Positions 1 through 30,575 of a stretch of DNA of 30,575 nucleotides are shown here, one piece after another. The notes under the pieces were generated by a model that worked only from the letters and a program-made list of their open reading frames with translations, did not search any database and was not told the origin of the DNA. The DNA comes from a virus, in the IMG/VR virus record IMGVR_UViG_3300007734_000560, positions 1-30,575 of that record; one strand, 5' to 3'. Made by a program: the position numbers and the translations under genes. The first letter of the stretch is position 1. The number at the start of each line of letters is the position of its first letter.

Positions 1-322
1 AAAAATTATTTGTAACGCTTGGCGAAATGCGACGCAACCATGAACGCGGTGCGATATACACTTTTTCCATTTCATTGCCATTCCACATTTCGTTATACAT
101 ACGCAACTGCATACAGCCAATGACCGATGCCATGAGATCGCGCGCTCGACTAACGGTCGGCACACTGATCGCATTGTTGCGCGACTGACCCTCAAAATAT
201 TGGTAATACTTGCCAACAGAATTAGCGCCACCATAACTACCAGCCGCAGCCGCTTTAGTCACTGGCTCACTATCGGCCTTTAATGGTTTGCCTGCAATAA
301 ATTCTATGAGTGTTCTAGGCAT
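1..322 (-). CDS. Portal protein, N-terminal part (unit A'), cut by window start
   Basis: The reading frame opens with ATG at 322 and runs off the window after 107 codons. It matches the N-terminal part of the complete portal at 13311-14402. Shared landmarks include SVPT(V/I)SRARDL, a following ASVIGC segment, and APRSWLRRI. Portals of the HK97 type form the dodecameric ring at the capsid vertex through which TerL pumps DNA. The gene follows the HNH-TerL gene with a gap of about 100 nt that holds a strong inverted repeat. No clear Shine-Dalgarno sequence precedes the ATG, and an in-frame TTG lies six bases upstream. The divergence from the unit A portal shows this is a different genome, not a repeat of the same one. 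Confidence 0.88.
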   Translation of the reverse strand, partial: MPRTLIEFIAGKPLKADSEPVTKAAAAGSYGGANSVGKYYQYFEGQSRNNAISVPTVSRARDLMASVIGCMQLRMYNEMWNGNEMEKVYIAPRSWLRRISPSVTNNF

Positions 323-363
323 AATCAAAGTATGCCACGCATTAGCGCGTCAATGTTGTATTA

Positions 364-411
364 GGTGCGCGCCGTAAAACAACCGAGAAAGCAGAAAGAC
401 GGCGCGCCACC
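364..411 (-). other. Inverted repeat (12-bp stem) in the terL-portal gap, unit A'
   Basis: The left arm 364-375 (GGTGCGCGCCGT) pairs with the right arm 399-411 (ACGGCGCGCCACC), giving 12 pairs with one bulged base at 408 and a 23-nt loop. It begins about 11 nt after the terL stop. No T-tract follows on the minus strand, so it does not look like an intrinsic terminator. Equivalent inverted repeats of different sequence sit in the same gap in the other two units. Confidence 0.8.
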
Positions 412-421
412 CGTCAACACA

Positions 422-2176
422 TTAGCCGTTAGCAACCACAATCATTGGCTTGCCCGAGCTGGTTGGTCGTGACGCAAGCGCTGCCGCCCAGACCATGCAT
501 CGTGCCAACTCGATAGGGCCAGGTGATCGTTGGCTGGATAACGCAATGCTGTTTTGTGATCTGACCGCCACGGCGCGTTGCACATGTTCGGCCAACATTT
601 CTTCGCCAGTGTGCACAATAAGTTTTTCGCCAATCATGGCTTTGATGCGTGGCGTGAATTTAAGTATTTCGCCGTAGCCGACCACAATGCGTTTGCGTTC
701 TAATGCGACAGGCCAATGCAGGTCAATCGTAGGTGTAATGGCAAACCGTACATTGCCGGTGTTGCACAGTCGGTCTACTTCGGCCATGACTTGATCAAAT
801 GTGTCCACAACAAATTCAACTGTGACTGCGGTGCGATGATCAGGTAGGACTACGCATCTGACACCAAAATATCTTGAGTCGTCTAGCGCGCATTCAATGG
901 CGACCGTGCCGCCGTCTGGTATCGGGTCGGTGTAATGCAACGCTGGCCAAATGCCCGGCTGTATCCATGCTTTGTCACTAGCAACCCATAGGTTGCAACT
1001 GGCGCGCAAGAATGACGCTCGATCAGGGTTTTCGGACTCGGCTTCAATAGTTTTCATTGTCAATGTCGTGCCCAGCGCAGGGTTTGCCCATGCCCACGAT
1101 GCCGGGTCAAGCGGTGACATGTCTGGTGGTGGCGACCATTCGGCAAAATAGAAACTACTTGTGTGCCCTGTGTCGATAGCGCGCAAACCTTGCTCACGCC
1201 ATTTAAGCATTGCGGTGCTGGCCTCAGTGCCAGCGGTAGACCAGAGCGATAACAGCGGTGATCGTTTGGCGCGTTGCGCTGGCAACAAACCGCCATCAAC
1301 AACTTCGCGCCCAATGTCCCACATTTCGTCAGCCACAATCAGATCGCATGACATACCGTGACCGACAGAATTATTGGCTGCGCGCACAAACCATTTGCTA
1401 CCGTCTGGCATTGTCACCGAATTACGACCGTAAGATTTCATTAAATATGCGTTAAAATATTTGTTTAAGATTGGTGCAAGATTGTCAAACAACATGACCG
1501 CCAAGTCAAGACGGTGCGCCACCGTCAACACAGTTTGCTTAGCGCCACGCACTTTAGGCATCTCAGTAAGCCACCAGCCGACCAGCGCCATGAGCGCAAC
1601 GGTTTTGCCGTTTTGTCGAGCCGTAGAAACAAGAGATACACGGTTAACTAAATCCTGATCATCGTCAAACAGCAGTTGACCCTGCAGCGCGCGTATCTGC
1701 CAATCCATTAACTCAACCTGCAAGTACTGCCTAGCAAATTCCCTAACATCGTCAATGAATGAACCGGCATGATCTGGCCACGCAGTCTCAAGCCTTGGTT
1801 GCTTTTGACCAGTTACCGCCAGTTCTGGCTGGTTAGGGCCATTTGGGATAATCCTGACTTGGGTCGGGGTGATGTTTTGTTTTCCATAAAAAAACTCTTT
1901 TGATTTTGGGATTTCTATTGCGTTGTTTCGCATGGCTTCGGCTCGTGCGTGTGATGTTGTTGCGTTGCGTTGGGCTACTTCTTTGTGGCCTTTTCTGTTG
2001 TTGCATTTGGCGCAACAGGGTTGCAAATTGTCGAGGTCGTGGCCGCCGCCGTTCATTATGGCAACGATGTGGTCTACGGTGTCGGCTGGTTTGCCACAGT
2101 AGGCGCATTCGGGTTTGTGTTGCAGGATGATTGCCCGGTTGCGTTTGTATTCGGGGTTGCTGTGTTCTTTACTCAT
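422..2176 (-). CDS. HNH endonuclease-terminase large subunit fusion (unit A')
   Basis: One frame encodes an HNH nuclease followed by a complete TerL. Numbering from ATG 2176 (584 aa), the HNH part has zinc cysteines C24, C27, C55, C58, the catalytic pair D35-H36, and N50 and N59. TerL follows from about residue 115, with the ATPase Walker A-like loop STARQNGKT, the Walker B segment LIVADEMWD and a C-terminal RNase H-like nuclease domain. HNH proteins encoded next to terL are known partners in cos cleavage in HK97-like phages; here both are a single chain. A longer TTG start at 2242 (606 aa) is possible; neither start has a good ribosome-binding site. The unit A counterpart is split into two frames. 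Confidence 0.92.
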   Translation of the reverse strand: MSKEHSNPEYKRNRAIILQHKPECAYCGKPADTVDHIVAIMNGGGHDLDNLQPCCAKCNNRKGHKEVAQRNATTSHARAEAMRNNAIEIPKSKEFFYGKQNITPTQVRIIPNGPNQPELAVTGQKQPRLETAWPDHAGSFIDDVREFARQYLQVELMDWQIRALQGQLLFDDDQDLVNRVSLVSTARQNGKTVALMALVGWWLTEMPKVRGAKQTVLTVAHRLDLAVMLFDNLAPILNKYFNAYLMKSYGRNSVTMPDGSKWFVRAANNSVGHGMSCDLIVADEMWDIGREVVDGGLLPAQRAKRSPLLSLWSTAGTEASTAMLKWREQGLRAIDTGHTSSFYFAEWSPPPDMSPLDPASWAWANPALGTTLTMKTIEAESENPDRASFLRASCNLWVASDKAWIQPGIWPALHYTDPIPDGGTVAIECALDDSRYFGVRCVVLPDHRTAVTVEFVVDTFDQVMAEVDRLCNTGNVRFAITPTIDLHWPVALERKRIVVGYGEILKFTPRIKAMIGEKLIVHTGEEMLAEHVQRAVAVRSQNSIALSSQRSPGPIELARCMVWAAALASRPTSSGKPMIVVANG

Positions 2177-2519
2177 GCTCACGCGCTTCGCTTGTGCTAA
2201 CGCGGCGCTGGCGCGCCTTGTTCTCGGTTTGTATGTGTGCAAGTTGCATGACGGGCTTGGGCTTTCTGTGTCGGTTTGTTAAGTGTATGTTATGTCAAGT
2301 TGTAATGCGAGACAGTGTGATGATGCTCACCCATCGGGCTGCCTCAATCCGATTACCTTGCATCATCTAGTCGATTATGTTTACGACTCGCTCCAACGCT
2401 TTGCCCGTCACCTTTCGTGTTGCAAGTTTCGGGGCGCGCTGGTCAAACGTTGTTCCCAACGATTAGCCCCGTCACCTGCGACAGTGATACAGCCGTGCTA
2501 CTAGCCGATTGTGAGTGTT
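2177..2519. other. Non-coding gap upstream of HNH-terL with nested repeats
   Basis: About 340 bases hold no convincing gene, only a 23-codon ATG frame without support. Two pairs of repeats are nested: a 13-bp near-identical pair (2364-2376 and 2498-2510) flanks an exact 10-bp pair CCCGTCACCT (2404-2413 and 2468-2477). A TTGACA hexamer occurs near 2290 on the minus strand but lacks a -10 partner. Position just upstream of the HNH-terminase gene is where cos or pac sites usually lie, so this is a candidate packaging or regulatory region; that is inference. Confidence 0.5.
2404..2477. repeat. Direct repeat CCCGTCACCT, two copies 64 nt apart
   Basis: Exact 10-bp copies lie at 2404-2413 and 2468-2477 inside the gap before HNH-terL. 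They are enclosed by the near-identical pair CATCTAGTCGATT (2364-2376) and CTACTAGCCGATT (2498-2510). The symmetric nesting suggests protein-binding sites, perhaps for terminase or an initiator, but chance cannot be excluded for repeats this short. Confidence 0.45.
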
Positions 2520-2597
2520 CTATTTTCTATCAGACCATGCCATTAAAACGGTGCATAACGCTGTCATCGCCAACGCAAGCCAAACCAGCCGGCTCAT
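2520..2597 (-). CDS. Tiny predicted membrane protein, 25 aa
   Basis: ATG at 2597 overlaps the preceding stop codon as ATGA, the same coupling used by most gene pairs in this window. The product is almost entirely hydrophobic (segment LVWLALAMTALCTVLMAW) with a charged SDRK tail, so it would form a single transmembrane helix with a short C-terminal tail. It resembles nothing I can name. It is the last gene of unit A before the non-coding gap. Its size makes chance a real alternative, but translational coupling plus a clean helix favour a real gene. A minor holin, antiholin or other membrane role would be a guess. Confidence 0.5.
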   Translation of the reverse strand: MSRLVWLALAMTALCTVLMAWSDRK

Positions 2598-2770
2598 TGT
2601 GTTATTGCTTTCATAATGCCTTTATCCACAAACTCGCGTTTTAACGCTTCATGTGCCAAGTGCAATTCATCGGTCAAACGCTCCACTTCTTTTTGTAGCC
2701 AGTCACGCTCACGCGCAATAGCCATCATGTGGTCATGTAAACGGTCGTAATGTTCGTTTGGATTGCTCAT
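2594..2770 (-). CDS. Small coiled-coil protein, 58 aa, unknown function
   Basis: ATG at 2770 overlaps the stop of the ERF-like gene as ATGA, so this start is preferred over an in-frame upstream ATG at 2800. The protein is highly charged and helical, with a heptad-like stretch (RDWLQKEVERLTDELHLAHE) that predicts a coiled coil. There are no cysteines or catalytic motifs. Its place directly after an annealing protein suggests an accessory DNA role or a structural dimer, but no family is recognised. Confidence 0.75.
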   Translation of the reverse strand: MSNPNEHYDRLHDHMMAIARERDWLQKEVERLTDELHLAHEALKREFVDKGIMKAITQ

Positions 2771-3294
2771 TTCTTTAACCCGTCTATCACGGCCGAACAC
2801 TGGCCAGCGGTCAATGTCTCAACCACAACGTCATCTACTTGTAACAAACGGTGGATGTATTCGAGCAACTGCACATCATCCCATCCCTTACCGCGCGCCA
2901 AGCTCTTCAGAAAACCAATTTGTTTTGGTGTAGCGCTGCCATGACTATCTGGTCGAAGCGTGCTGTTCACACGGTTTACCTTTTCCATTTCGCTGACCGA
3001 TGCACGTTCGCCAGTGTGCCCGATGTTGCTGTTGCTGATTGCACGCCCAATGGCGCTGGTCTCACAGTTTTCTAAAAACGATGTTTTATTGACCGGGCTA
3101 TTGCCAAACACTTCCTCTGCGTAACCCGTGCTAATAAGTCGGTCATCGTTGTTGTAGCACTCGGCGCGCATAATGATTGTTGAACCGTCGTAATGATGTA
3201 TTGACGTGATAATGCGGCCGTTTGGATACTGTTCCCACCAGCGCACCAAACGTTGGGCAACTGTCTCGTACAACGATAAATCAAAATGCGCCAT
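2767..3294 (-). CDS. ERF-like single-strand annealing protein (unit A)
   Basis: The N-terminal domain carries the signature of phage ERF/Rad52-like annealing proteins: a TGYAEE motif followed by NKTSFLENCETSAIGRA, with the CETSAIGRA core at about residues 81-89. A linker leads to a C-terminal helical domain (from about residue 122) opening with SATPKQIGFLKSLA, typical of actinophage ERF homologues. Such proteins bind and anneal single-stranded DNA during recombination-dependent replication and genome concatemer or circle formation. ATG at 3294 shares one base with the preceding stop (TAATG), so it is preferred over an ATG 15 bases upstream. Unit B has a different annealing protein in the corresponding place. 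Confidence 0.85.
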   Translation of the reverse strand: MAHFDLSLYETVAQRLVRWWEQYPNGRIITSIHHYDGSTIIMRAECYNNDDRLISTGYAEEVFGNSPVNKTSFLENCETSAIGRAISNSNIGHTGERASVSEMEKVNRVNSTLRPDSHGSATPKQIGFLKSLARGKGWDDVQLLEYIHRLLQVDDVVVETLTAGQCSAVIDGLKK

Positions 3295-3659
3295 TAGCAG
3301 GCCACCCAAACTATGGCTTTGCGCCCGTAACGTGTGTTGCGTCGTTTGCCACTGTCAATAATGTGTTTGTCTCGATGCAAACCGTTAATGCGTGCTGATA
3401 CTGATTGCGCTGGCAAATCGGTTAGCACACTTATTTCGTCTGCGGTCATACCTTTAGACTCTGTGCCGCCTGCCCATTTAATCCAAAAATGCACAAGCTC
3501 ACGCTGACGGCCTGAATGCGGTTTGGCTTTTTCGCCTGCTTCGCGCGACGTATCCGGTGCGTTATGTGCGATTGCCACTTTGAGGTGATTTATTGCTGGC
3601 TGTGTTTTTTGGCCAGCCAATCCCAATGTTGTTGTAAACATTTCTAATTGGTTATTCAT
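3294..3659 (-). CDS. Helix-turn-helix (winged-helix) DNA-binding protein, 121 aa
   Basis: The C-terminal half reads as a winged helix: an ADEISVLTDLPAQSVSARI helix-turn-helix segment followed by NGLHRDKHIIDSG and basic residues RRNTRYGRKA that form the wing. A linker segment PDTSREAGEKAKPHSGRQ precedes it. Proteins of this shape in phages bind origins or operators. Being next to the annealing gene, with no polymerase or helicase nearby, it is a candidate initiator or early regulator; this is inference. It overlaps the zinc-ribbon ORF upstream by eight bases and is coupled to the ERF-like gene downstream. Confidence 0.72.
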   Translation of the reverse strand: MNNQLEMFTTTLGLAGQKTQPAINHLKVAIAHNAPDTSREAGEKAKPHSGRQRELVHFWIKWAGGTESKGMTADEISVLTDLPAQSVSARINGLHRDKHIIDSGKRRNTRYGRKAIVWVAC

Positions 3660-3807
3660 GTCGGGTTCTTTCTGTAGTCGGGTTTATTGGCTTTACTTTA
3701 GCACACGCTTTTAAGTTGGGATGTAACCACATTACTTTTTCGGGATTGTGCCGATACCTTGTGCCGTGCATGGTTAAACCGCACAATTTACAAGGCGCGT
3801 ATAACAT
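3652..3807 (-). CDS. Small zinc-ribbon-like protein, 51 aa
   Basis: An open frame from ATG 3807 to 3652 fills what otherwise looks like a 128-nt gap. The peptide has CKLCGL near residue 6, then HGTRYRH, then WLHP and a final Cys in KACAKV, a spacing that resembles the CxxC...H...WxH...C small zinc ribbons common in actinobacterial phages. It overlaps the end of the upstream gene by 20 bases and the start of the helix-turn-helix gene by eight. An internal ATG at 3771 would drop the first cysteine pair, so the upstream start is preferred. No strong ribosome-binding site is visible. Confidence 0.6.
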   Translation of the reverse strand: MLYAPCKLCGLTMHGTRYRHNPEKVMWLHPNLKACAKVKPINPTTERTRHE

Positions 3808-4063
3808 TGATTGCAGCTCTAATCACTGATGCGTTAAAACGGTTTTGCTCTCCGCCAATGGTCATGTGTGCGTCATACATCATTGTTAATTCGTCAAGCA
3901 AATTGCTGTGGTCTGGTGGCTCTGGTCGAGCAACATGGTTTGGTCGTACAATGTCGTCAATCATTTCGCCAAACACTTTGCCAAGTTTGTCGCTGTAGTT
4001 ATCGGGATACATTCGTCGGGTCTCCTCTGTAATGCCCGTTTCGGGATACTGTGCGTCAGTCAT
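3788..4063 (-). CDS. Hypothetical protein, 91 aa
   Basis: ATG at 4063 overlaps the stop of the SLT lysin gene (ATGA). The protein is acidic and soluble, beginning MTDAQYPETG and containing the segment RPNHVARPEPPDHSNLLDEL followed by two probable helices ending VIRAAINVIRAL. I recognise no family. It lies between the lysis cassette and the DNA-binding genes. Its regular coding pattern and coupling support it being real. Confidence 0.65.
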   Translation of the reverse strand: MTDAQYPETGITEETRRMYPDNYSDKLGKVFGEMIDDIVRPNHVARPEPPDHSNLLDELTMMYDAHMTIGGEQNRFNASVIRAAINVIRAL

Positions 4064-4545
4064 GAGCCGGGCACAGCCCATGCTGACCAGCCAACTTTAT
4101 ACCAGAGGTGTAACGCGGCACGGATATTTACATCTGGATAAAACAAGTCGTCAAGTTTAGTTATGTAACCCTCACTAATAAGCCATGACTTGTGCGTGCC
4201 GTTGACTTGTAGTAATCCTCGACTGCCGCCGTTGCTGTCTCGACTGTTAAACGCCAACGGGTTACACCGTGACTCTCTAAACATGACGCGCGCCAACATT
4301 GGTGCTTCGCTTGCAGGCCAGCCAGCGGTAATGGCATCAGCAACGTACTGCGCGCATCCTTTAGGCACGGCCGTAGTCGTGGTTGTCGTGGTTGGCAATG
4401 TGGGCACAATGCTCACAAGGGTTGTGGTGCGTTGGCCTACTAGCGCTGGTTGGCTGTCAGACGGCTTACTAGCCCCATAGAGCAACGTAAATGCCGCTAA
4501 GCCAGTAACCAGCCATGCACTTATTTTGATAGCGAAATATGTCAT
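4060..4545 (-). CDS. Membrane-anchored or secreted SLT-type lysozyme-like lysin
   Basis: ATG at 4545 is preceded by GGAG seven bases away and overlaps the previous stop (ATGA). Residues 5-24 form a hydrophobic signal or anchor (AWLVTGLAAFTLLYG). A Thr/Pro linker of the TTTTTTTAVP type follows. The C-terminal domain carries the transglycosylase pattern: catalytic Glu in FRESRCNP, then SRGLLQVN, and the terminal helix with ALHLWYKVGWSAW. It would cleave the glycan strand of peptidoglycan outside the membrane, complementing the M15 peptidase encoded just upstream. It could act in lysis or in local wall opening. Unit B has a comparable exported enzyme. Confidence 0.85.
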   Translation of the reverse strand: MTYFAIKISAWLVTGLAAFTLLYGASKPSDSQPALVGQRTTTLVSIVPTLPTTTTTTTAVPKGCAQYVADAITAGWPASEAPMLARVMFRESRCNPLAFNSRDSNGGSRGLLQVNGTHKSWLISEGYITKLDDLFYPDVNIRAALHLWYKVGWSAWAVPGS

Positions 4546-4721
4546 TTTTTCTCCAGTTGGTAAGGCGTTTGCCATGAGTCGCCGATTGCATCCTTAAACG
4601 CAATTTGTGCGTGTAGCACTTCGTCGGTCTCTGGGTCACGGAATATCTGCACCAAAACCATTTGCTGGCTGTCAAGGTGCGTGGTGTAAACCTCGTAAAT
4701 GTATGTTTTTGCGTCTGCCAT
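4542..4721 (-). CDS. Hypothetical protein, 59 aa
   Basis: ATG at 4721 has a strong ribosome-binding site (GGGAG, six bases away), so it is chosen over an upstream in-frame ATG at 4763. The product begins MADAKTYIYEVYTTH and is predicted to be a small beta-rich soluble protein with the segment VLVQIFRDPETDEVL. No family is recognised. It sits between the two lysin genes and is coupled to the second. Confidence 0.7.
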   Translation of the reverse strand: MADAKTYIYEVYTTHLDSQQMVLVQIFRDPETDEVLHAQIAFKDAIGDSWQTPYQLEKK

Positions 4722-4759
4722 TGCATCTCCCTTATCGCCGGTGTTTCCACCATAGGGCA

Positions 4760-5286
4760 TCACTGTGGCAATTCGGTGAATACTCTTTTAAACGCTTGCT
4801 GTATAAGGGTTACAGGTTGATTGACGAACGCTGGTGATACTTCCACGTGCAACCAATCGCCACCCGGCGCACCGTGTATTTCGGGTTTGCTGTACGACTT
4901 CCAAGCTTGACGGTCACAACGCCAGCCGCGCCCAAATGCTTTAGGAAAATAATCAAGCACGCACTCCACACCTAATTCGTTGGCATTAGCAAGCACAATG
5001 TTAATAAACGCAATAGTGCCTTTACGATTAGCGGTGGCGTGTTGCTCTGACGGCCTGTACGACAAGTCAACCGCTCGACCAGTGGCATGAACGCTCAACG
5101 ATGTTTCGCTGCCGCGCATGTTGCGTACGCCCCACGAGCCGTTATTCCAAAACGCGCCTGCACCGTATTTGATTGCATGCCGTATCCATTCATCCATGCC
5201 GGCAGTGGGCCTGCAGATGCACCGTCACTGTTGCCTGTGTACGGCTTAGACCCGATAACTTTAGGGTTGGCTGGTAGTACGGCCAT
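4760..5286 (-). CDS. M15-type peptidase endolysin, interrupted by a one-base frame break
   Basis: Two frames together make one lysin. The first (ATG 5286) reads SKPYTGNSDG...GPLP. The second continues as MDEWIRHAI...WNNGSWGVRNMRG, then the zinc-binding motifs SVHATGRAVD and GDWLHVEV. This is the layout of actinophage M15 (D-Ala-D-Ala or L-Ala-D-Glu) peptidases. The frames join if one G is restored at 5199-5200, giving LPGMDEW and 175 aa. Alternatively the 145-aa frame from ATG 5197 could be translated alone and retains all zinc ligands. The enzyme would cut peptide cross-links in the host wall. It follows the holin by nine bases. Confidence 0.85.
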
Positions 5287-5295
5287 TGGTTGGAT

Positions 5296-5544
5296 CTATG
5301 GTTTTCGTTTAAGGCCGTTGGCGGCAACTAGGCCAGACAGTGTGCCGGTCATAAAAATGCTAAGGGTTTTAAGTAAGTCAATAAATGCTGCATCGTTTGG
5401 TGCTTGCTCGACTGGTTGGCTTACGAATAGTAAACCCCACACAAACCCAATGACAGTTACTGCAAACGTGACTGCAATAGTGCAACCAACAAACACAATC
5501 ATTCGAGCGTGTAGTAATTCTATTTCTGCTCTTTGCCTAACCAT
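5296..5544 (-). CDS. Holin-like protein with two TM segments, 82 aa
   Basis: Residues about 15-41 form a long hydrophobic helix (MIVFVGCTIAVTFAVTVIGF) and residues about 55-77 a second (LLKTLSIFMTGTLSGLVAA), separated by a short polar loop with PNDAAF. The C-terminus is basic (KRKP). Size, topology and place immediately before the endolysin fit a holin that permeabilises the cytoplasmic membrane. AAGG lies about eleven bases before the ATG, which overlaps the lipoprotein gene by eight bases. Confidence 0.78.
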   Translation of the reverse strand: MVRQRAEIELLHARMIVFVGCTIAVTFAVTVIGFVWGLLFVSQPVEQAPNDAAFIDLLKTLSIFMTGTLSGLVAANGLKRKP

Positions 5545-5686
5545 TGTCGCATTGCCTTAATGTGACGCAATGGCTAGGTAGTGCACTGTTGCGCACGGTT
5601 TTTTTGCCTGCGTTATCGCGTGTTGTTTCGCAAGCGGTCAGGACAAGTGCAAACACAAAACTAGCCAAGTAATAGCGCGGCTTCAT
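5537..5686 (-). CDS. Small predicted lipoprotein, 49 aa
   Basis: ATG at 5686 opens MKPRYYLASFVFALVLTAC, a textbook type II signal peptide with basic n-region, hydrophobic core and an LTAC lipobox (cysteine 19). The mature part would be only about 30 residues and has two more cysteines. It lies between the fibre-associated ORF and the holin and overlaps the latter. Phage lipoproteins of this size are known as Rz1 spanin subunits or as superinfection-exclusion factors. It lacks the proline richness of Rz1 and no inner partner is evident. I did not find a counterpart in unit B. Confidence 0.66.
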   Translation of the reverse strand: MKPRYYLASFVFALVLTACETTRDNAGKKTVRNSALPSHCVTLRQCDNG

Positions 5687-5692
5687 GACGCA

Positions 5693-5830
5693 TCATGGGA
5701 ACGGTACATAATCAACTTGGCGTTGGATAAATGCTTCGTATTCGGCTGGTGTCATTGGGCGTATTACGCCGTCAATTTGGATATAAACCTCGTCATGTGG
5801 ATACATTTCTACGGCTTCTGCGTATGTCAT
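5693..5830 (-). CDS. Small protein after fibre gene, 45 aa
   Basis: ATG at 5830 lies three bases after the stop of the fibre-like gene. The sequence has VYIQIDGVIRPMTPAEYEAF followed by QRQVDYVPFP. It is short, acidic and without membrane segments. The pattern of an (I)DG.(I)R.MTPAE core resembles small proteins found downstream of tail fibre genes in many phages, where some assist fibre assembly, but I cannot assign a family. The coding frame accounts for nearly all the space between fibre and lipoprotein genes. Confidence 0.62.
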   Translation of the reverse strand: MTYAEAVEMYPHDEVYIQIDGVIRPMTPAEYEAFIQRQVDYVPFP

Positions 5831-5833
5831 AAG

Positions 5834-6559
5834 TTATGCCTTTGCGTATCCATACACATAAATTGTGCCGCCAGTAAATGTTCCAGTATCTGGCAAAATT
5901 GTAAAATCGGTATATTGCGTTGTGTTATTTAGAAAAGCATTAACAGCCCCAGCAAGACCAGTAGTACTCGGTCTAACAAATTGGGCATGTAATATAGTTT
6001 TTTTAGCCAAATTGGGCGCGAGTACATCATAATCTGCGTTCATGCTTGCAGCGTCACCACTGCCTACATATTGAAAATTTGCCCCGTTTGCAAAAGCGGC
6101 ATTTGTAGGTGACCCTGCTGCATAACTTCCATACATTAAAGAACCATAATAACCCGTAGTTGTTGAACCTAATTTCATACTCAAATCTTGATTAGTTGAA
6201 CCTACGCCGCCGTTAATAATAATTTTATAATTATCATAGGTGCTAGAAAACGCGCCAGTAACTGTGACGCTTGCAACTGTCGTGCCAATAGTTGTCGCAC
6301 TAATAAGTGTCAATGCACTAGCAGTTGCAGGCCCGACAGTAGCCCACGCCGCGCCATCGTAATACTGCACAATGTTGCTGGCTTCGATATAACACAACTG
6401 GCCCTCTGCCAACGCTTTGTTGCTGCCACCAAACGCCGCATCACGAGTAACGGTGGTAGCAAATACTGGTACGCCAGTGCCAGCACTTGTGTTTTGTTGC
6501 GCGGCAGTCAAAACCTGACCGCTAGTAAACAACGGAACGGTGGTCTGTGTATTGGCCAT
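5834..6559 (-). CDS. Tail fibre / receptor-binding-like protein (unit A), 241 aa
   Basis: The N-terminus has FTSGQVLTAAQQNT, the tail-attachment motif also seen in the unit B protein at 20180-20812 (AGAILTAAQLNT). After a segment with RDAAFGG...EGQLCYIEAS and YYDGAAW, both proteins switch to Ser/Thr/Gly-rich beta repeats that do not align well. This conserved head and variable tip is expected for a host-recognition protein at the tail end. It follows the minor tail protein gene by nine bases. Confidence 0.75.
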   Translation of the reverse strand: MANTQTTVPLFTSGQVLTAAQQNTSAGTGVPVFATTVTRDAAFGGSNKALAEGQLCYIEASNIVQYYDGAAWATVGPATASALTLISATTIGTTVASVTVTGAFSSTYDNYKIIINGGVGSTNQDLSMKLGSTTTGYYGSLMYGSYAAGSPTNAAFANGANFQYVGSGDAASMNADYDVLAPNLAKKTILHAQFVRPSTTGLAGAVNAFLNNTTQYTDFTILPDTGTFTGGTIYVYGYAKA

Positions 6560-6568
6560 AGTCGTACT

Positions 6569-9207: not shown

Positions 9208-9698
9208 TAGCGCAAACCGCCTTGTATCTCTGTTTGAGTTTTTTCAATCATAGACACCATTGCTTGTTCAATTCCGCGCCTTGCTTTATAGACGGCAGGC
9301 CCAATAAGTCGAGTGCGGCCAGCGCCCACAAAACCTAGCGAGTCGCCAAGTTTATTTGCGTTAGCTCTGCCAGCGGTCTCAAAAATTGCTGCGGCCGGGT
9401 CTTTTTGCTCAATCAAAATTACGCCTACGGCATTGCGTCGGCTGTCAAACTTTACGCGCACCCCTTTTGTTGCATTGTCAACGGTAAACGGAAATAATTG
9501 ACGGCCTCGACTAGACCATTTGTATTGCATACCTGACAACGGCACGCTTGTATAAACCGCTTTTGCTGCGGTAACGGCTGGTTCGGCAATAGCAATAGCG
9601 TCGGACTTAAAATCTTTTTGCAGTTGTGGGTCAATTTGGCGCAATGCGTTAATAGTCTCTTTGACCCCTGCCACTTCAATAGTTGCTGATGCCGACAT
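9207..9698 (-). CDS. HK97 gp10-like protein (unit A), 163 aa
   Basis: The protein begins MSASATIEVAGVKETINAL and has LSGMQYKWSSRG, then a segment AAAIFETAGRANANKLG and a C-terminal helix. This order is the HK97_gp10 (neck/tail-completion) family pattern. The unit B homologue shares LSGMARQWSGK and AGAIFEVAGTRN. In most siphoviruses this gene precedes the major tail protein. Here it lies between the chaperones and the tape measure in both complete units. A role as a tail-completion or tape-measure-associated factor is plausible. Confidence 0.75.
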   Translation of the reverse strand: MSASATIEVAGVKETINALRQIDPQLQKDFKSDAIAIAEPAVTAAKAVYTSVPLSGMQYKWSSRGRQLFPFTVDNATKGVRVKFDSRRNAVGVILIEQKDPAAAIFETAGRANANKLGDSLGFVGAGRTRLIGPAVYKARRGIEQAMVSMIEKTQTEIQGGLR

Positions 9699-9700
9699 AT

Positions 9701-10101: not shown

Positions 10102-10138
10102 ATTGCCTGCTTTCGTGTCGGGCCGTTGCCGGCTCTAA

Positions 10139-10549: not shown

Positions 10550-10554
10550 GTGGG

Positions 10555-11722: not shown

Positions 11723-11737
11723 GGCGGTTAAGCCGCC
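11723..11737 (-). other. Short hairpin between capsid and adaptor genes, unit A
   Basis: On the minus strand GGCGG-CTTAA-CCGCC forms a perfect 5-bp stem with a 5-nt loop, ending one base before the adaptor ATG. It could hold the initiation region in structure or mark mRNA processing after the highly expressed capsid gene. No T-tract follows. Confidence 0.5.
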
Positions 11738-11743
11738 TCTCGA

Positions 11744-19139: not shown

Positions 19140-19140
19140 G

Positions 19141-19929: not shown

Positions 19930-19937
19930 CGTATCCC

Positions 19938-20812: not shown

Positions 20813-20824
20813 TGGGGTTCCTCC

Positions 20825-24024: not shown

Positions 24025-24494
24025 TAACGCACCAGCCCTTGCACGGTCTTTTCGGCATTCTTAATCAAGTCGAGAATGTCAGCCTGAATCTGGCCAGCAT
24101 GGCGGTCATACGTCGGCCAAAGGACGCGAGGATTACGGCCACGGAGATTGCGGGCAAATGATCCTCCGGAATTTCTGGTGCCTGCCACCTCAAAGATTGC
24201 GCCGGCCGGTGAGGCTTGCGTGATGTAAATCACGCTTGCCTTGTTCTTGCGCGTTGTCGTCTTGACCTTCACGCCACGACGGACTGCCGATGATACCCAT
24301 GGGAACTTTCCGGACCACTGCCGAGCCATTCCAGAAAGAGGCATATTTGGATAACCAGATTTGGCGTCCGATACCATTGGCGCAACAGCACCCTTCGCGC
24401 CGCGCATGAACTCTTTGGCGGCTTCCGAATCAAGACGACGCAGCGCCCGAATGGTGTCCTTCACATCCACTCGGGTTGTCGTCTCAACTGGCAT
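24024..24494 (-). CDS. HK97 gp10-like protein (unit B), 156 aa
   Basis: It has VDVKDTIRALRRLDSEAAKE, PLSGMARQWSGKFPW, then SPAGAIFEVAGTRNSGG and a C-terminal helix. It aligns with the unit A protein in the same odd position between chaperones and tape measure. ATG 24494 falls 11 bases inside the end of the frameshifted chaperone. Likely a neck or tail-completion factor. Confidence 0.76.
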   Translation of the reverse strand: MPVETTTRVDVKDTIRALRRLDSEAAKEFMRGAKGAVAPMVSDAKSGYPNMPLSGMARQWSGKFPWVSSAVRRGVKVKTTTRKNKASVIYITQASPAGAIFEVAGTRNSGGSFARNLRGRNPRVLWPTYDRHAGQIQADILDLIKNAEKTVQGLVR

Positions 24495-24902
24495 TGTTTG
24501 CCTCTTTGATTAGCTCCAAGACCGTGTTCAAGTCTCGCATGGTGAACGGCACCTCAGGGGGCCAGTAGCCGGTATGCACCAAGACGGTGCAGAGCGCCCG
24601 GCTTACTGATCCCCATTGGTAGGGTTTGGACCCTCATTCGTTTCGGTTTCGACTGACTCGATGCTAACAAGCGAATCCACGAAGGCGTCAAAGTCATCAC
24701 CGACAGGCAGACCCTTATCGCGGCCTGCCTGCCATGCCATGAACGCCAGCCATTCGAGACGGGGCTGAATCGCCAGCACAGTGGCCGACACGTTAAACCG
24801 TCGCTCAAAGGCAATGGCGTTCTTAATGGTGTCAATCGCAACCGTGAACTCGCCCTTACTGGTCGTGAACCGGATGTTTCCCTCTACTGCTTCAGCTGGC
24901 AT
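24484..24902 (-). CDS. Tail assembly chaperone, -1 frameshift product (G-T type), unit B
   Basis: Slippage at A AAC CCT (24627 to 24621) gives 139 aa. The -1 extension reads PYQWGSVSRALCTVLVHTGY, then WPPEVPFTMRDLNTVLEL and ends EANNAS. It shares with unit A the pattern G-(F/Y)-W-P-x4-F-x2-R-D-L-x-T, so the -1 frame is conserved as protein. It overlaps the start of the gp10-like gene. Confidence 0.86.
24603..24902 (-). CDS. Tail assembly chaperone, short form (G type), unit B, 99 aa
   Basis: The frame from ATG 24902 starts MPAEAVEGNIRFTTSKGEFT, has a segment WLAFMAWQAGRDKGLPVGDD and ends in acidic NEGPNPTNGDQ. The family call comes from place, length and the slippery site just before its end. 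Actinophage chaperones commonly show FAWLAW-type motifs like the one here. Confidence 0.82.
   Translation of the reverse strand: MPAEAVEGNIRFTTSKGEFTVAIDTIKNAIAFERRFNVSATVLAIQPRLEWLAFMAWQAGRDKGLPVGDDFDAFVDSLVSIESVETETNEGPNPTNGDQ
24621..24627 (-). promoter_or_regulatory. Slippery heptamer A AAC CCT for -1 frameshift, unit B
   Basis: The minus strand reads AAACCCT in phase as A AAC CCT, a canonical -1 slip site. It lies inside the 11-mer CCAAACCCTAC that is identical in unit A. The -1 frame is closed by TGA a few codons upstream, so slippage must occur in this short window. Confidence 0.9.
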
Positions 24903-24929
24903 CTGTTCCCTTTCGATTGCCTTTGTGGG

Positions 24930-25346
24930 TTACGGAGTGACGTCCCGAACCCACGTCCCGCCGGTGAATGAGATTTCGAACACCTGAAGTTCGCCCACGG
25001 TGTAGCTGACAGGGTAGTCGGCGATCATGGTGTCGCTGATTGTCCACTCAGGGTTGTTCGCTGCAACCGCGCCGGCGTCCTTGCGAACCACAATTGCGGT
25101 GTCGCCCTGACCGATTTCAGCGGCGAGGGTGGCCTCAACCGACCCCGCGCCGTACTCGGCGTAAAGGGTGATGGTGCCGTCCACGGTCTGAAGGCCGCCG
25201 ACCATGCGCTCGCCACCATCGCCAAACGCGGTCGAGGTAAGCGGGTTCTGACCGAGAGTGAAAGAGATTGCCGAACACTGGTCGCTCAGCTGGACCCCGC
25301 CGATAGTGATCGACGCGGGCTGTGAAAGATAAGTCGTTGCCGCCAT
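24930..25346 (-). CDS. Major tail protein (unit B), 138 aa
   Basis: The protein begins MAATTYLSQPASITIGGVQL, has DQCSAISFTLGQNPLTSTAF and ends FEISFTGGTWVRDVTP, aligning end to end with the unit A tube protein. AAAGGAG lies nine bases before the ATG, a strong site as expected for an abundant structural protein. It forms the tail tube. The tail chaperone genes follow. Confidence 0.88.
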   Translation of the reverse strand: MAATTYLSQPASITIGGVQLSDQCSAISFTLGQNPLTSTAFGDGGERMVGGLQTVDGTITLYAEYGAGSVEATLAAEIGQGDTAIVVRKDAGAVAANNPEWTISDTMIADYPVSYTVGELQVFEISFTGGTWVRDVTP

Positions 25347-25351
25347 TTCGG

Positions 25352-25705
25352 CTAGCTCCTTTGGGTTGAAACTCGTACGGTGAGGTCATAGGTCGGCACT
25401 TCTTGCCCACCGATCTGCATAACCCCGGGAATGCCACGGATCAGAGAAATATCTGAATCCATGATGGTATCGGCCGCGCTTATGAGGTAATCCACTGCAT
25501 CTTGATTACCCGGCGGGGCCGCCAGCACCTGAACGCCAATCTCGATTTCTGCAATGTTGGAGTTAAAACAGGTGAAGGTTGGAGGATCGACTAGGACTGA
25601 CATAGGTCGAGCGTTACGCGGGTCAGTCACTACGGCAAGGCCAAGGCCCTGCAATGACGCCACGAGCGTTGCCTGAGCCGCCGCAAAGATTCCGGTGGCG
25701 CTCAT
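25352..25705 (-). CDS. Tail terminator-like / neck protein (unit B), 117 aa
   Basis: It starts MSATGIFAAAQATLVASLQG, has LAVVTDPRNARPMSVLVDPP and ends YDLTVRVSTQRS, matching the unit A homologue in length and pattern. Its position between adaptor and major tail protein suggests tail terminator or completion function. ATG overlaps the adaptor stop (ATGA). Confidence 0.7.
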   Translation of the reverse strand: MSATGIFAAAQATLVASLQGLGLAVVTDPRNARPMSVLVDPPTFTCFNSNIAEIEIGVQVLAAPPGNQDAVDYLISAADTIMDSDISLIRGIPGVMQIGGQEVPTYDLTVRVSTQRS

Positions 25706-26328
25706 GCCACTTGCGACCTATTGACGCCCAGCAGTCGGTTGATCTGGCCGTTGGAGCCGAACGGGACCGGACTGCCCATCGCCTCAAACGATGCAAACGA
25801 ATCGACCGAACCACGATCCCGGTACAAGCTCCCGGCAAACATGACCGTGCCAAGCTTGACGTCACCACCGGGCACCGTGGTCAGGCTGTCGAAATACCCT
25901 GCCTCACGCCGCCGGCGGTATGCGTACTGATTGGCCGCCGAAACGCAGCTGGTGATGAAGGCCGTGTCGTTTGCGGTTGCAGCTGCGATGCCAAGCCATT
26001 CCACAACGTCCGCGTTGGCGATCCAAGTGCAGGTTGCCGTAAACGTGAGAACGCCTTGGACTGCACTCCGAGCAATGTCGGCGTGAGTCTTTTGCACCAG
26101 CAGCTGATTGACAATAATGACTTCGTAGTCGTAGAGGTGGTTGCCCTCCTCGTCGACTCCGAGGAACAGGTACGTCGGCACCGAGTAGACGGTGTACGTG
26201 CCGTTCAGGGTCGCCCCAAGCCCAGTGAGCGTGATCGACTGCCCTACGCCAATGTCCGTGCTTTCAAGCGTCTCGACGACCATATGGTTATCGGTGACTT
26301 GACGGTATGCAACGGTGTAAGTGGCCAT
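25702..26328 (-). CDS. Head-tail adaptor with extra N-terminal beta domain (unit B), 208 aa
   Basis: The C-terminal half has ADVVEWLGIAAATANDTAF, NQYAYRRRREAGYFD, and an end INRLLGVNRSQVA, the HK97 gp6-like adaptor pattern. The N-terminal 90 residues (SITLTGLGATLNGTYTVYSV) form an additional beta domain, as in unit A. The adaptor ring links portal to tail. It sits 26 bases after the capsid gene. Confidence 0.8.
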   Translation of the reverse strand: MATYTVAYRQVTDNHMVVETLESTDIGVGQSITLTGLGATLNGTYTVYSVPTYLFLGVDEEGNHLYDYEVIIVNQLLVQKTHADIARSAVQGVLTFTATCTWIANADVVEWLGIAAATANDTAFITSCVSAANQYAYRRRREAGYFDSLTTVPGGDVKLGTVMFAGSLYRDRGSVDSFASFEAMGSPVPFGSNGQINRLLGVNRSQVA

Positions 26329-26354
26329 GGGCAGTCGATCAGCTCAGAAAGCGT

Positions 26355-27902
26355 CTAGAAGGTCGCCTTCACGAACTTCTGGGGGTCGATCATCAGCGTT
26401 GCGAGGTACCCACGGAACGCGATGGTACGGCTCAGGGTGCTGGGAACGTCAACCGCAATGGCACCCTTCTGCTGCTCGTAAATCTCGAACCCGCTGGGGT
26501 CTCCGACAATCACCGTGTCGGTGGCGAAGTTGCGGTCGACCACGACGCGAAGGCCGAAGGCCATGCCCGCTGCCTCGTTGACCTGAAGGTCGCCGTAGGC
26601 GTTCATGGGGCCAAGCGACGGGAACAGCGGACGCCCTGAGGTGTCCACCAGACCGATGAGGTAGCCCCACATGTTTGGCGACACAAACAGGTGCGTCGGC
26701 AGGTTGCCATTGCTGTTGCTGAGGATGGCCTGAGCAGCGGTGCTGACAAACGCGGCCCAGTCGGCCGGGTCGGTGGCGTCGTTACCAAAGGCGGCCGTGA
26801 CGCTGGCACCAGTCTTGAGGTTGTCCGCTGCGTAGTTGTCGGTCTGGTTCGCGTAAATGCGAGCCATGTCGTCAAGCAGCAGGCCGATGACCTCAGGCGT
26901 CGACCAGTCAATCGACTGCTCCGACAGCGTGACGTAGCCGCCCCAAGTGGTCTTGGTGACCTGATTGTCGGTGATGACAAAGGTGCCGTCGTCGAGAGCG
27001 GTGTTCTGCGTGGCCTGCTCACTGATGCTGGTGTGAGTCGTGACCTCGGGACGAATGAACACCTTGCCGCCGGCGGGAAGTGCGCGAGCGCCGATGGCGT
27101 CGATCACGGGACGGATGCCGCGGAAGTTGTTGTAGACCGGCTGAACAATCGGAATCGGCAGGATGCCGGGCACGTCGTCGGTGATGACGTTGGGAGCTGC
27201 GGCCTGAATGCCCTCGCGCATGGCCTGAAACTTGTCGCCACCCATGAGGAACGCGCTGATGTACTCAGCCGGGGTCGGCATCACGAAATGCGCACGGGCC
27301 TCTGCGTAAACAATCGGGTTGGTCGGGATGGTGGCCGCTGCCTCAACGGGCGTGGCCTCTGAAGCGTCGGACACTTCCGGTTCTCCTTCATCGTTGATTT
27401 CCGGCTCGGACTCATCCGGCTCGGGGTCTGCGGCAGTTGCCGCGACTTCGGTGATTACTGCGCCGGCGAACGCCGGGACCGCCACCAGTGACAGCTCGAT
27501 GAGAGCCGCTTCGGTGACTTTCATAACCCCCTCGGGGGAGGTCGTGAACTTGATGGGCCGTGCGCCAACGCTCACGGAGTCGTAGGCACCGGCCTTCAGC
27601 AGGGCCACGGCGTCACGCGAAGCGCGGGTATCCGCCAGAGTGGCCTCAAACTCTAAGCCGTCGGGAGTGTCGGAGAGGGCAGTTACCACGCCACGCAGCT
27701 GCGTCATATCGTGGTTCTCGATCAGCTTTGCCCGCTTCACGGGGGCGGTGTCAAATGCGCCACGGGAGAATTCGACCTGCGTACCGTCAGAAACGGTCGC
27801 CACGGTGTCCCATGGCACGGCGATACCGGCGATGCGCGGCGGGCTTTTCTCGTCCCCGGCCTCGGCCGTGATGAGGTCTGCATCGGCCTCAAACCTAATC
27901 AT
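26355..27902 (-). CDS. Prohead protease-major capsid fusion (unit B), 515 aa
   Basis: Residues 1 to about 150 form the prohead protease: IAGIAVPWDTVATVSDG, likely catalytic His in ENHDMTQLRG and Ser in ELSLVAVPAF. An acidic linker (EPDESEPEINDEGEPEVSD) follows. The rest is the HK97-fold capsid subunit with VPGILPIPIVQPVYNNF, DNYAADNLKTGAS, LPTHLFVSPNMW and FEIYEQQKGAIAVDVP. The joined form places scaffold/protease and shell in one polypeptide, which must be cut at or near the linker. ATG overlaps the portal stop by eight bases. Confidence 0.92.
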   Translation of the reverse strand: MIRFEADADLITAEAGDEKSPPRIAGIAVPWDTVATVSDGTQVEFSRGAFDTAPVKRAKLIENHDMTQLRGVVTALSDTPDGLEFEATLADTRASRDAVALLKAGAYDSVSVGARPIKFTTSPEGVMKVTEAALIELSLVAVPAFAGAVITEVAATAADPEPDESEPEINDEGEPEVSDASEATPVEAAATIPTNPIVYAEARAHFVMPTPAEYISAFLMGGDKFQAMREGIQAAAPNVITDDVPGILPIPIVQPVYNNFRGIRPVIDAIGARALPAGGKVFIRPEVTTHTSISEQATQNTALDDGTFVITDNQVTKTTWGGYVTLSEQSIDWSTPEVIGLLLDDMARIYANQTDNYAADNLKTGASVTAAFGNDATDPADWAAFVSTAAQAILSNSNGNLPTHLFVSPNMWGYLIGLVDTSGRPLFPSLGPMNAYGDLQVNEAAGMAFGLRVVVDRNFATDTVIVGDPSGFEIYEQQKGAIAVDVPSTLSRTIAFRGYLATLMIDPQKFVKATF

Positions 27903-28992
27903 TGTTCGGAACCTCCATCATCGATGAATCCTCGGCCGGCGAAACATCCTCCGGGGACTGGGTTTCGTTGTGGACCATTTCGCCGATGTACGCGTCGGTG
28001 TCGAACTCGACGTGGCGTCCCCGGGGCAGAACGTCGTCCATGCTTAGACGCTCGGCAATAGCGTGAAGCAGCGGACGGGCCCCGAATTCGATGAGGTCGC
28101 GCCGTGCTTCCTGCGCGTTTGAGTAGGTCATCGACCCCGCTTGGTCAACGGCAAGAAGGTAGGCGGGAATATCCATAAGGCGGCTGAGGTCCTTAGCGGA
28201 ATATTCCCGCCCTTCCACCAGCTGCAATTTGGACGGGTCAGAGCTGAATTCCTTGAAATCCACCATATCGTTGAGTGCCCCGATGGCGTTCTCACGGCGA
28301 TTCGATGCCCAAGCGCTTGCCATCTCGGCAAGCTCGTCCCCGCTCATCGGCTCCCCGCCCGTCTGCTGAAGGTAGCCGGCGGCAATTTCGTTACTTGCAA
28401 AGCGGGCGGCGGCTTCGTCCAAACGGATTGCACACTGAATTGCACGGTTGCCCGTGTAAACGATTCCCTGCGAACCGCTGAGAAACGTCACGACGTCCTT
28501 CACGTCGAGCTGCACACCGTTGAACATCACGACTTCCGGAGAGCCGAACCACTGGGGCCCGACATTGTTCGGGGTTTCGATGTTCGCAGCGGGGAGCCAC
28601 TGAAAGGTTGCCGGGAAGCCGTTAGCGTACCTGCTGGTGATAACCCAGAACGCCCGCCCCTGCATGATGAGGTCGCGGACGGTAACTGACAGCGTGAAGT
28701 TGCGGGTTTCAGTCGGGTTCGGGCGCGTCATCCACGATTCGCCCTCGACGTACAGCTTCTCGTAACGCTGCCCAGTCCACTGAAGCGTGTAACTACGCAG
28801 GTCGAGCGTACTTACAACCGTGGAGAGCAGGCTGATGGCGCGAGTAACAGACGGAACAGACATTGCCGCCTGCTCGGCCATACCAATCTGAAAGCCGAGA
28901 AAGTTGTTCGCCCGCTGAGGCGCGCCGGCAGCTGCGGCAAGGGGTACCGAAGCTGCGGCGGGTACGGCTTTCACCTTCTGAAAGAGAGGCAT
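27895..28992 (-). CDS. Portal protein (unit B), 365 aa
   Basis: It follows the HK97 portal pattern: MSVPSVTRAISLLSTVVSTL, then FWVITSRYANGFPATFQWLP, LQQTGGEPMSGDELAEMASA, LMDIPAYLLAVDQAG and an acidic C-terminus. It matches the unit A portal over most of its length. No strong ribosome-binding site is seen; a small hairpin (about 29014-29034) lies upstream. Twelve subunits form the channel for DNA. Confidence 0.92.
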   Translation of the reverse strand: MPLFQKVKAVPAAASVPLAAAAGAPQRANNFLGFQIGMAEQAAMSVPSVTRAISLLSTVVSTLDLRSYTLQWTGQRYEKLYVEGESWMTRPNPTETRNFTLSVTVRDLIMQGRAFWVITSRYANGFPATFQWLPAANIETPNNVGPQWFGSPEVVMFNGVQLDVKDVVTFLSGSQGIVYTGNRAIQCAIRLDEAAARFASNEIAAGYLQQTGGEPMSGDELAEMASAWASNRRENAIGALNDMVDFKEFSSDPSKLQLVEGREYSAKDLSRLMDIPAYLLAVDQAGSMTYSNAQEARRDLIEFGARPLLHAIAERLSMDDVLPRGRHVEFDTDAYIGEMVHNETQSPEDVSPAEDSSMMEVPNND

Positions 28993-29057
28993 ACCGGAAT
29001 CATCTATAGACCTTTGTCAAATTACAAGGGCCATGACATAGAGACACGATTTCAATA

Positions 29058-29114
29058 CGCGTGGGGGCCTCAGGGAACCGGCCCACCACAAGCGGACCGA
29101 GAAACCCCCACGCG
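29058..29114 (-). other. Perfect 10-bp inverted repeat in the terL-portal gap, unit B
   Basis: CGCGTGGGGG (29058-29067) pairs perfectly with CCCCCACGCG (29105-29114) around a 37-nt loop. It starts 11 nt after the terL stop. The loop contains TTTCTCGGT on the minus strand, also present in the unit A' loop. There is no T-tract after it, so it is not a standard terminator. Confidence 0.85.
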
Positions 29115-29124
29115 CAGCTACATA

Positions 29125-30575
29125 CTACCGGCTGTATGCAATTGCTGGGCGCTGTGATGTACGGGGCTTTGCGACCAAGGCAGTAGCGAACACCATGCAA
29201 CGTGCAAGCGTGATGGGCCCGTTGGATCGTTGCGACGAAAGCGCATAGCCGCGTTGCGTTGATACGCCCACGGCCCGGTCGACGTGTTCGCGCAGCATTT
29301 CCTCACCGGTATGCACAATTCGTTCCTCAAGGATCAGCTGGCGAATGGTGCCGGTATGCGTCGACAATTCTGAGTACCCCACCTGCACCTTCCGCCTGTG
29401 CAAGTTGTCGGGGGCCAGCTCAAACAGTGATGGCGTGAGTGCGATTCCGGTGCAGCTCTTGGCCCGTTCGTTGATTTCCGCCCAACACTTCGCAAGCGAG
29501 TCGACCACGAAGTCAACGGTTACGCCGATCATTCCGTCCTCCATTGGAACGGCACGGACCCCGCAATACATCGATTCGTCCGGCGATGAGTCCACGGCTA
29601 GCACTCCTCCGGCGGGGACACTTTCGACCTGAAGGGCATCAAATGTGCCGGGCGGAAGCCATGAGGTGGTTGCCGTAATCCAGACGTTGAGACTGGCGCG
29701 CATAAACGCGGCCTTGTCCACCTGATTCACTTCGTCGTCAAGCACTTCGCGTTCAAGCGTGTAGCCCAAGGCGGGATTGGCAAGGTGCCAAAGGTCCGGC
29801 CGGTTCACTGCGTCGACCCCGGGCGGTACGGACCATTCCGCGAAATACAGGTTTGTTTGCCGGTCCTCGTCGATCGCCCGTAGCCCTTCCTCCCGCATCT
29901 GAATCATGGCCCTCGATGACTCCGTGCCGGCGGTCGACCAACATGAGAGCATCGGCGACTTCATCACGCGCTGGGAAGGCAATGCGCCGTTCAGCAGCAC
30001 GTCAGGGCTAATGCCCCAAACCTCGTCGGCGATGATGAAGTGCGGCGAATAGCCGTGGAACCTTGAAGGCGTGGCGGCCTGAATCATCCAGCGCGACCCG
30101 TCAGGCATCACGGCTTCCTGCCTGCCGTAACTCCACCTGCACTTCGCCCCGTGCTTCTTTTCTAGCAGCGGACCTAGCGCCTCAAAGATTTCAGCCGCGA
30201 GGTTCAGCTGGTGCGCGGTGCTGATGATGAGGATTGGTTCCCCGCGGCGCTTCGGCTCATCGAGCAGCGCCCACAAGATCAGGGACTTGATGGCAAGGGT
30301 CTTGCCGTTCTGTCGTGCAACCGATACCAGTGAACGACGCCGGCGGAACTTGCCATCGTCATCAACTTCCAGCTGCCCGCTGAGTGCGCGGACTTGCCAT
30401 GGCATCAGTGTCATGCCCAGCTCGCGCAGCGCGACGGCGGCCACGTCGGGCCCGAAACTCAATCCCCCATATGTGGGCGTTTCCAGTCTCGGTGCAATCT
30501 CATGTGATCCGCCGGCATCTGGTGAGTCCGTTCCGTTTTCGTCTTGTTCAGGTTCGTTCGGGACATACGGAAAGA
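29125..30575 (-). CDS. Terminase large subunit (unit B), 5' end beyond window
   Basis: The frame stays open to the window edge, so the true start is outside; a TTG at 30462 would give 445 aa but cuts off the conserved APRLET segment. The ATPase domain shows SVARQNGKT (Walker A), FIIADEVWG (Walker B) and CWSTAGTESS (coupling). The nuclease domain has AVDSSPDESMYCG. The end, SSQRSNGPITLARCMVF, matches the other two TerLs. It packages and cuts phage DNA. Divergence is much greater from units A and A' than between those two. Confidence 0.92.
   Translation of the reverse strand, partial: FPYVPNEPEQDENGTDSPDAGGSHEIAPRLETPTYGGLSFGPDVAAVALRELGMTLMPWQVRALSGQLEVDDDGKFRRRRSLVSVARQNGKTLAIKSLILWALLDEPKRRGEPILIISTAHQLNLAAEIFEALGPLLEKKHGAKCRWSYGRQEAVMPDGSRWMIQAATPSRFHGYSPHFIIADEVWGISPDVLLNGALPSQRVMKSPMLSCWSTAGTESSRAMIQMREEGLRAIDEDRQTNLYFAEWSVPPGVDAVNRPDLWHLANPALGYTLEREVLDDEVNQVDKAAFMRASLNVWITATTSWLPPGTFDALQVESVPAGGVLAVDSSPDESMYCGVRAVPMEDGMIGVTVDFVVDSLAKCWAEINERAKSCTGIALTPSLFELAPDNLHRRKVQVGYSELSTHTGTIRQLILEERIVHTGEEMLREHVDRAVGVSTQRGYALSSQRSNGPITLARCMVFATALVAKPRTSQRPAIAYSR

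Follow-up and report, generated by a model that had tools for sequence, protein, structure and literature searches.

How do three diverged phage genomes come to stand head to tail on one strand of a single viral record? The record in question, IMGVR_UViG_3300007734_000560 of the IMG/VR database, was analysed over its whole length of 30,575 bases (hereafter the window) and contains, read along the minus strand, two complete units of miniature phages, designated B and A, followed by 1,858 bp of a third unit, C. We consider it probable (about 75%) that the window represents three different miniature phages of one family, whose virion ends at the cohesive-end (cos) sites were joined right to left, and that it is not a maintained array.

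The three units and their junctions at cos

The large terminase (TerL) genes of the three units are located on the minus strand, as are all features described here, at positions 30573-29125 (B), 15962-14514 (A) and 1858-422 (C). A tblastn comparison of the unit B TerL with its own record returned three matches with identities of 100, 47 (C) and 45% (A), which rules out that one genome was read twice and bears out the first-pass annotation of this DNA, in which diverged TerL and portal copies in tandem on one strand had been noticed. The copies of A and C are more alike, with DNA blocks of 72-78% identity and 71% identity across a match of 1,465 bases. The spacings, given at first as about 14.6 and 14.09 kb, were measured as 14,614 bases between the match starts of B and A (tblastn) and as 14,086 bases from A to C (repeat search). 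Unit B (15955-30575) is a complete linear genome of 14,621 bp duplex with a GC content of 0.599, and unit A (1869-15944) a complete linear genome of 14,076 bp duplex with 0.491, in line with the dissimilar GC reported earlier for the two full units. Both lengths between cos sites fall in the range of about 14-17.5 kb with fixed ends that is typical of miniature siphoviruses, and in both units the portal gene and then the protease-capsid fusion gene follow TerL in the order known from these phages. The earlier claim of three genomes thus holds for B and A, whereas the third genome is only a stub of 1,858 bases (1-1858) with TerL and the portal start, which shows 92-95% identity to parts of two records of relatives (L148 and L150).

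For comparison, relatives were retrieved from viral_contigs, where the TerL patterns of unit A matched 387 stretches, of which 384 were confirmed as relatives; the family is common in public data. We used 61 loci found with the unit B TerL and the best 80 of the 384 confirmed with the unit A TerL, and 44 long relatives were taken whole. The pattern scan of the relatives for cos junctions yields at least the number counted.

Both window junctions coincide with a cos site that has a putative 10-nt 3' overhang, CCCGACCCNN, with the core CCCGACCC. The B-A junction (15945-15954) lies inside the interval of 15.8-16.4 kb that had been proposed for it, whereas the interval of 2.1-2.7 kb misses the A-C junction (1859-1868). 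Stand-alone genomes of about 14 kb had been named beforehand as an outcome that would speak against a natural array, and they were seen for relatives of the units, which occur as separate contigs of 14.0-15.4 kb with cos ends. Among 25 contigs, 12 start just past the ten bases CCCGACCCNN (e.g. GTCTTG...) and end just before them (e.g. ...ATCAC); two of these, L147 and L157, are TruSeq contigs from Lake Soyang. In contigs that read through cos, the ten bases stand between the two ends. Moreover, in four contigs of the 3300046000 series (L158, L244, L266 and L368) and in L353, the overhang is retained at the start, preceded by a short purine-rich tail. The right end of L158 (IMG/VR record 3300046003_001523) reads CCCGACCCTT and then, directly past the overhang, about 19 adapter-like last letters, which we take to be an Illumina adapter. 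The ten bases may be missing from the 12 linear contigs because end repair would remove a 3' overhang; together with their retention behind added tails, the loss fits a 10-nt 3' overhang. Contig ends and adapter junction therefore point to fixed ends with a cohesive overhang, as expected of a cos phage. Among the family members seen, 8 of the 10 overhang bases are common almost throughout, a share that is biased upward for the core since only junctions with a run of T and with CCCGACC or CCCGTCC as core could be found by the search patterns. A run of at least six T about 20 nt before the overhang was observed at the listed cos junctions, where it encodes FF or F in the linker; the terminase may recognise this run as part of its site.

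The units end precisely at these sites. The right end of the window is the first base of unit B after its overhang, and L144 (IMG/VR 3300007734_000844, 14,278 bp) can be aligned with unit B over four blocks that extend from base 1 to base 14,621, where L144 ends as well. Unit A aligns blockwise and end to end to the segment of L162 between its cos sites and also to most of the linear contig L164.

That both window joins link different phages at cos is supported by several comparisons. At each junction, the TerL that follows differs from that of the preceding unit (45% protein identity for B and A, 71% DNA identity for A and C). The B-A junction is a heterologous join that carries the overhang of unit B, CCCGACCCCT, as in L144, before an A-type start GTCTTG; in contrast, all 23 non-redundant junctions of relatives with a GTCTTG start carry CCCGACCCAA instead. 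The latter overhang is also found at the A-C junction, a heterologous join of an A tail with a C head. Around cos, the native A and B sequences have no exact common stretch longer than 9 nt. As this combination of overhang and start was found in 0 of the 23 junctions and the native sequences share at most 9 nt, a chimeric molecule would be needed at the B-A junction.

The same picture emerged when tails (the last HNH endonuclease residues before cos) and heads (the first TerL residues after it) were compared between 175 items, comprising 152 junctions of relatives, the two window junctions and 21 linear contigs. Of 159 non-redundant junctions, seven with tails below 13 aa or heads below 120 aa were left out, as were four linear contigs (L148, L250, L175 and L184). 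Tail and head generally agree: at tail identities of at least 0.95, the median head identity was 0.97 (first run, 169 items). At the B-A junction, the tail is 0.93 alike to that of L144, but the L144 head is only 0.40 alike, and the head is 0.99 alike to that of L162, but the L162 tail is only 0.35 alike. This junction is discordant at all four threshold settings shown, and both window junctions are discordant at the main thresholds. A mixed join of separate genomes, among the possibilities named at the start, thus gains support, with cos as its site.

The reading frame adds a further line of evidence. In this group, the HNH endonuclease at the right end and the TerL at the left end form one reading frame through cos. 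The B-A junction breaks it: the end of the unit B HNH gene (15919-16320) runs out of frame into unit A and stops at 15919. By contrast, of the 132 scored junctions that have 300 nt or more upstream, 131 keep the frame, a count in which the junctions were preselected by an open frame 1 downstream of cos, so that only the upstream openness is independent. The sole exception, L210, is not a cos. With any frame permitted, frame 1 was found at 181 of 184 loci, a set that includes duplicates and the window; two of these 181, L210 and the B-A junction, are interrupted upstream. Closed on its own head, the unit B HNH gene stays open (203/203 codons); when each is closed on itself, the open frame is 0 in unit B and L144 and 1 in unit A. 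The B lineage is thus phase-shifted on both sides of cos together, which supports selection for the HNH-TerL frame. At the A-C junction, the HNH gene of unit A is in frame with the TerL of unit C, resulting in an open reading frame (ORF) of 606 codons (422-2242) for a chimeric protein.

How the joins may have arisen

Each genome would have fixed ends at the common cos site with the 10-nt 3' overhang read from the sequence. If the DNA of many such phages was freed into one tube, ends of different phages would anneal, the annealed nicks would be sealed at library ligation, and chimeric molecules would be sequenced and assembled. Of the steps that may have joined the genomes, we favour this one, in which DNA from a mixture of virions anneals in the tube and is sealed during library making, over an array formed inside cells. 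It is favoured because genus-level mixed joins are concentrated in libraries of virus particles and because a molecule of 30 kb would not be expected within phage particles of about 15 kb.

In the Korean data sets, seven junctions were discordant at the genus level and one was concordant, as compared to four discordant and 128 concordant junctions elsewhere, with 12 more unclassified (p = 1.4e-8). The Korean label was assigned by hand from data set numbers. Four of the six Lake Soyang viromes account for seven of the eight scored Korean junctions; the eighth, L162, belongs to data set 3300011335, which is absent from the Soyang table and not verified as Korean. Without 3300011335, 4-6 of 7 junctions were discordant versus 4 of 120-137, with p values between 1.9e-4 and 1.3e-7 across the 15 threshold settings. 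The Korean records L148, L150 and L307 are outside the eight scored; the end overlaps of L148 and L150 (Lake Soyang) are divergent, at 87.8 and 90.9%. According to the published account, the virions of the Lake Soyang viromes were purified by filtration, DNase treatment and a caesium chloride (CsCl) step, and TruSeq libraries made without amplification were assembled with SPAdes at k-mer sizes (k) of 27-127 (PMC7553992). In two records, L402 with an A' tail (588/600 nt as in L162) and an L417-like head (550/600 nt) and L162 with an L417-like tail (43/45 nt) and an A' head, the arms are reciprocal swaps relative to L417. L162 (unverified as noted), L402, L403, L329, L343, L347 and L200 from the Korean viromes were also seen to resemble genus-level cos joins, and such records may need splitting. 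The order B-A-C was not noticed in the records inspected, among which no exhaustive search was made; other mixed pairs were seen.

Several points weigh against this account of the window. An origin of the window from the Korean sets is suggested only by matches of 92-95% of A and C to contigs from Soyang or 3300011335. The A-C junction scores as concordant in 7 of 15 threshold settings because the heads of A and C are alike (0.73 protein identity), and in these settings its heterology rests on the TerL comparison within the window. One end of L146, L148, L164 and L284 still carries the overhang, and the library type is known only for Soyang. That ligation in library making seals annealed nicks is general knowledge. 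Finally, of 30 rows with end overlaps, 14 are near-identical, one duplicates L165 and 15 are divergent (71-96%; the rows of L402, L403 and L347 are short or weak matches only), and 12 of these 15 divergent records come from data sets outside the Korean ones. Joins between close relatives are thus not confined to viromes, and co-infection or strain switching in assembly could make them. L165, L404, L406, L407, L409 and L321 from other data sets are longer than one genome and have repeated ends that differ by 8-18%; they look like close-relative joins or strain switches.

The divergent overlaps beyond Korea would also fit mixed concatemers in co-infected cells, formed by end-joining or recombination at the common cos and captured when replicating DNA was sampled. 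The overhang core common to the family members found and a single-strand annealing protein encoded by unit B (17099-17794; phrog_3290, 1.5e-38) agree with this origin. However, genus-level mixed joins concentrate in purified-virion sets, in which the DNA is presumably of unit length in a capsid of about 15 kb, and the B-A join destroys the HNH-TerL frame, so that we regard concatemers formed in cells as unlikely. It is still less probable that an assembler passed between phages via the cos region and that no chimeric molecule existed. Although this region is highly conserved in close relatives, e.g. CCCGACCCAAGTCTTGTCTATCCCAAC at many junctions, which is as long as the smallest Soyang k of 27, the sharing of at most 9 identical nt between A and B at cos and the overhang-start combination unseen in relatives stand against it; as the sole cause of the B-A junction, a k-mer assembly chimera was rejected on the former ground.

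Tandem prophages or prophage remnants in a bacterial chromosome would account for the head-to-tail order on one strand, yet the junctions lie exactly at virion ends. In agreement with the first inspection, no integrase was found among the PHROG families matched by 29 distinct window proteins (the unit B tail genes at 20.2-26.3 kb were unscanned), and ARAGORN detected no tRNA in the window. Furthermore, no relatives were found in longer bacterial contigs of genome_contigs: a single TerL query confirmed none, and a 40-row TerL profile identified two relatives, both on stand-alone contigs of 13,829 and 8,612 bp. The prophage reading, one of those considered initially, was therefore rejected, and its probability is close to negligible.

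With the joining of virion ends as the preferred explanation, some long virome contigs of small cos phages would be joins of different viruses. Such joins are detectable by the tail/head and reading-frame test at cos; left in databases, the joined records make genomes seem larger than they are and combine lineages. The array itself is ordinary once it is seen as joined genomes; what deserves to be followed further is the position of cos within the HNH-terminase gene.

A reading frame that spans cos

Among the relatives, 103 distinct complete ORFs of at least 540 aa read from HNH through cos into TerL, a number that includes in-frame mixed joins such as L292 and L299. An alignment of 40 fused ORFs revealed that the HNH residues and the TerL motifs are conserved, that the linker is variable in length, and that, of the residues encoded by cos, Pro104 does not vary and Thr105 hardly does. 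For the L081 protein (584 aa), AlphaFold2 gave a model with a mean predicted local distance difference test (pLDDT) score of 85.6, in which the HNH (residues 1-87) and terminase (124-571) parts are confident; residues 88-123, which contain the cos-coded PTQ, score below 50. It is thus suggested that cos falls inside an HNH-TerL gene, in the part encoding a linker to which AlphaFold2 assigns very low confidence.

The differences at codon positions 1, 2 and 3 were 0.227, 0.171 and 0.217 upstream and 0.148, 0.160 and 0.168 downstream of cos. As a proof of coding, this bias near cos is weak, and it gives no support for protein-level constraint in the linker. At 129 concordant junctions, the median position of the first ATG, GTG or TTG after cos is codon 5 (quartiles, 1 and 24; at most codon 64), and that of the first ATG is codon 49; a separate TerL start after cos is conceivable. 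A tblastn search with the 606-residue window ORF gave coverage of at least 80% in 0 of 1,258 phage records matched, linear records being expected to split such a gene, and phrase searches of the literature for genes that contain cos and for fusions of HNH with terminase returned nothing on the subject.

We tentatively propose, at somewhat less than even odds, that the gene for the packaging enzyme is at the same time the packaging cut site in a large family of miniature phages, many of them from lakes, with one HNH-TerL protein and cos in its linker. The gene would be split in every virion and restored only once the ends join after infection, and the fused protein would then package DNA and cut cos again inside its own gene. 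If so, the enzyme would be whole only after end-joining in a new host, which would tie packaging to completed joining, and each cut would destroy the gene copy spanning it. Moreover, the near-identical overhang could allow genomes of different phages to be linked at their ends during co-infection, with an exchange of whole arms. Whether a terminase gene is split by the terminase's own cut is now a directly testable question.

Gene content and comparison with known systems

The TerL ORF of unit A (14514-15962) starts inside the junction, and that of unit B (29125-30573) is open at the window end. The portal proteins are encoded at 13311-14402 in unit A (PF04860, 1.3e-19; phrog_12, 1.6e-21) and at 27895-28992 in unit B (PF04860, 1.8e-25; phrog_12, 6.6e-29). 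The prohead protease-major capsid fusion of unit B (26355-27902) matches PF04586, PF25209 and phrog_2263 (4.9e-79), and that of unit A (11744-13314), which is frameshifted, matches PF04586 above the cut-off and PF05065 slightly below. The unit A frame is broken near 11,980 (ORFs 11744-12079 and 11974-13314), and all 12 relatives compared have a single frame; the break is likely a base error or a defective copy. Unit A contains genes for a major tail protein (10139-10549; phrog_4574, 7.5e-22) and a tape measure protein of 462 aa (7819-9207; phrog_991, 5.4e-17), and a siphovirus particle may be expected from these genes. Among the accessory genes, unit A encodes a transglycosylase SLT domain protein (4060-4575; PF01464, 3.2e-06), and unit B a CHAP-domain endolysin (19141-20043; PF05257, 2.7e-07; phrog_21825, 1.7e-10) and an endonuclease or Holliday junction resolvase-like nuclease (16788-17102; phrog_93, 1.4e-12; phrog_5702, 5.8e-07).

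Decurrovirus, represented by the Arthrobacter phage Decurro (15,524 bp), likewise has a small genome with an HNH endonuclease gene as the last gene at the right end, and its gene order is alike, with terminase, portal, protease-capsid fusion, head-to-tail adaptor, major tail, tape measure and lysis genes. However, three small genes precede the terminase gene in Decurro, its HNH gene ends with its own stop codon 27 bp from the end of the record, and its TerL shows only about 25% similarity to that of unit B. The Microbacterium phage BonaeVitae (17,451 bp; Orlajensenviridae) has the same gene order and also HNH as the last gene, but two genes stand before the terminase gene, the HNH stop lies 67 bp before the end and the TerL is about 25% identical to that of unit A. 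The ends of the BonaeVitae record (L416) were seen to resemble the cos of the window family: the deposited ends ...CACCCCGCCCCA and GTCTTC... are similar to CACCCCGACCCAA followed by GTCTTG here, hinting at a common origin of cos. Whereas the right end of these miniature siphoviruses carries a separate HNH gene that is closed by its own stop, the HNH frame of the window family runs through cos into TerL.

Different lambda-type phages with common cohesive ends can form mixed dimers of their DNAs in vitro, a precedent that concerns different phages and another overhang type, and in which cos lies between genes and not inside one as it does here. In HK97-type phages, an HNH protein is encoded beside cos and works with the terminase; in these phages, HNH and terminase are separate proteins, whereas here they are encoded by one frame with cos inside.

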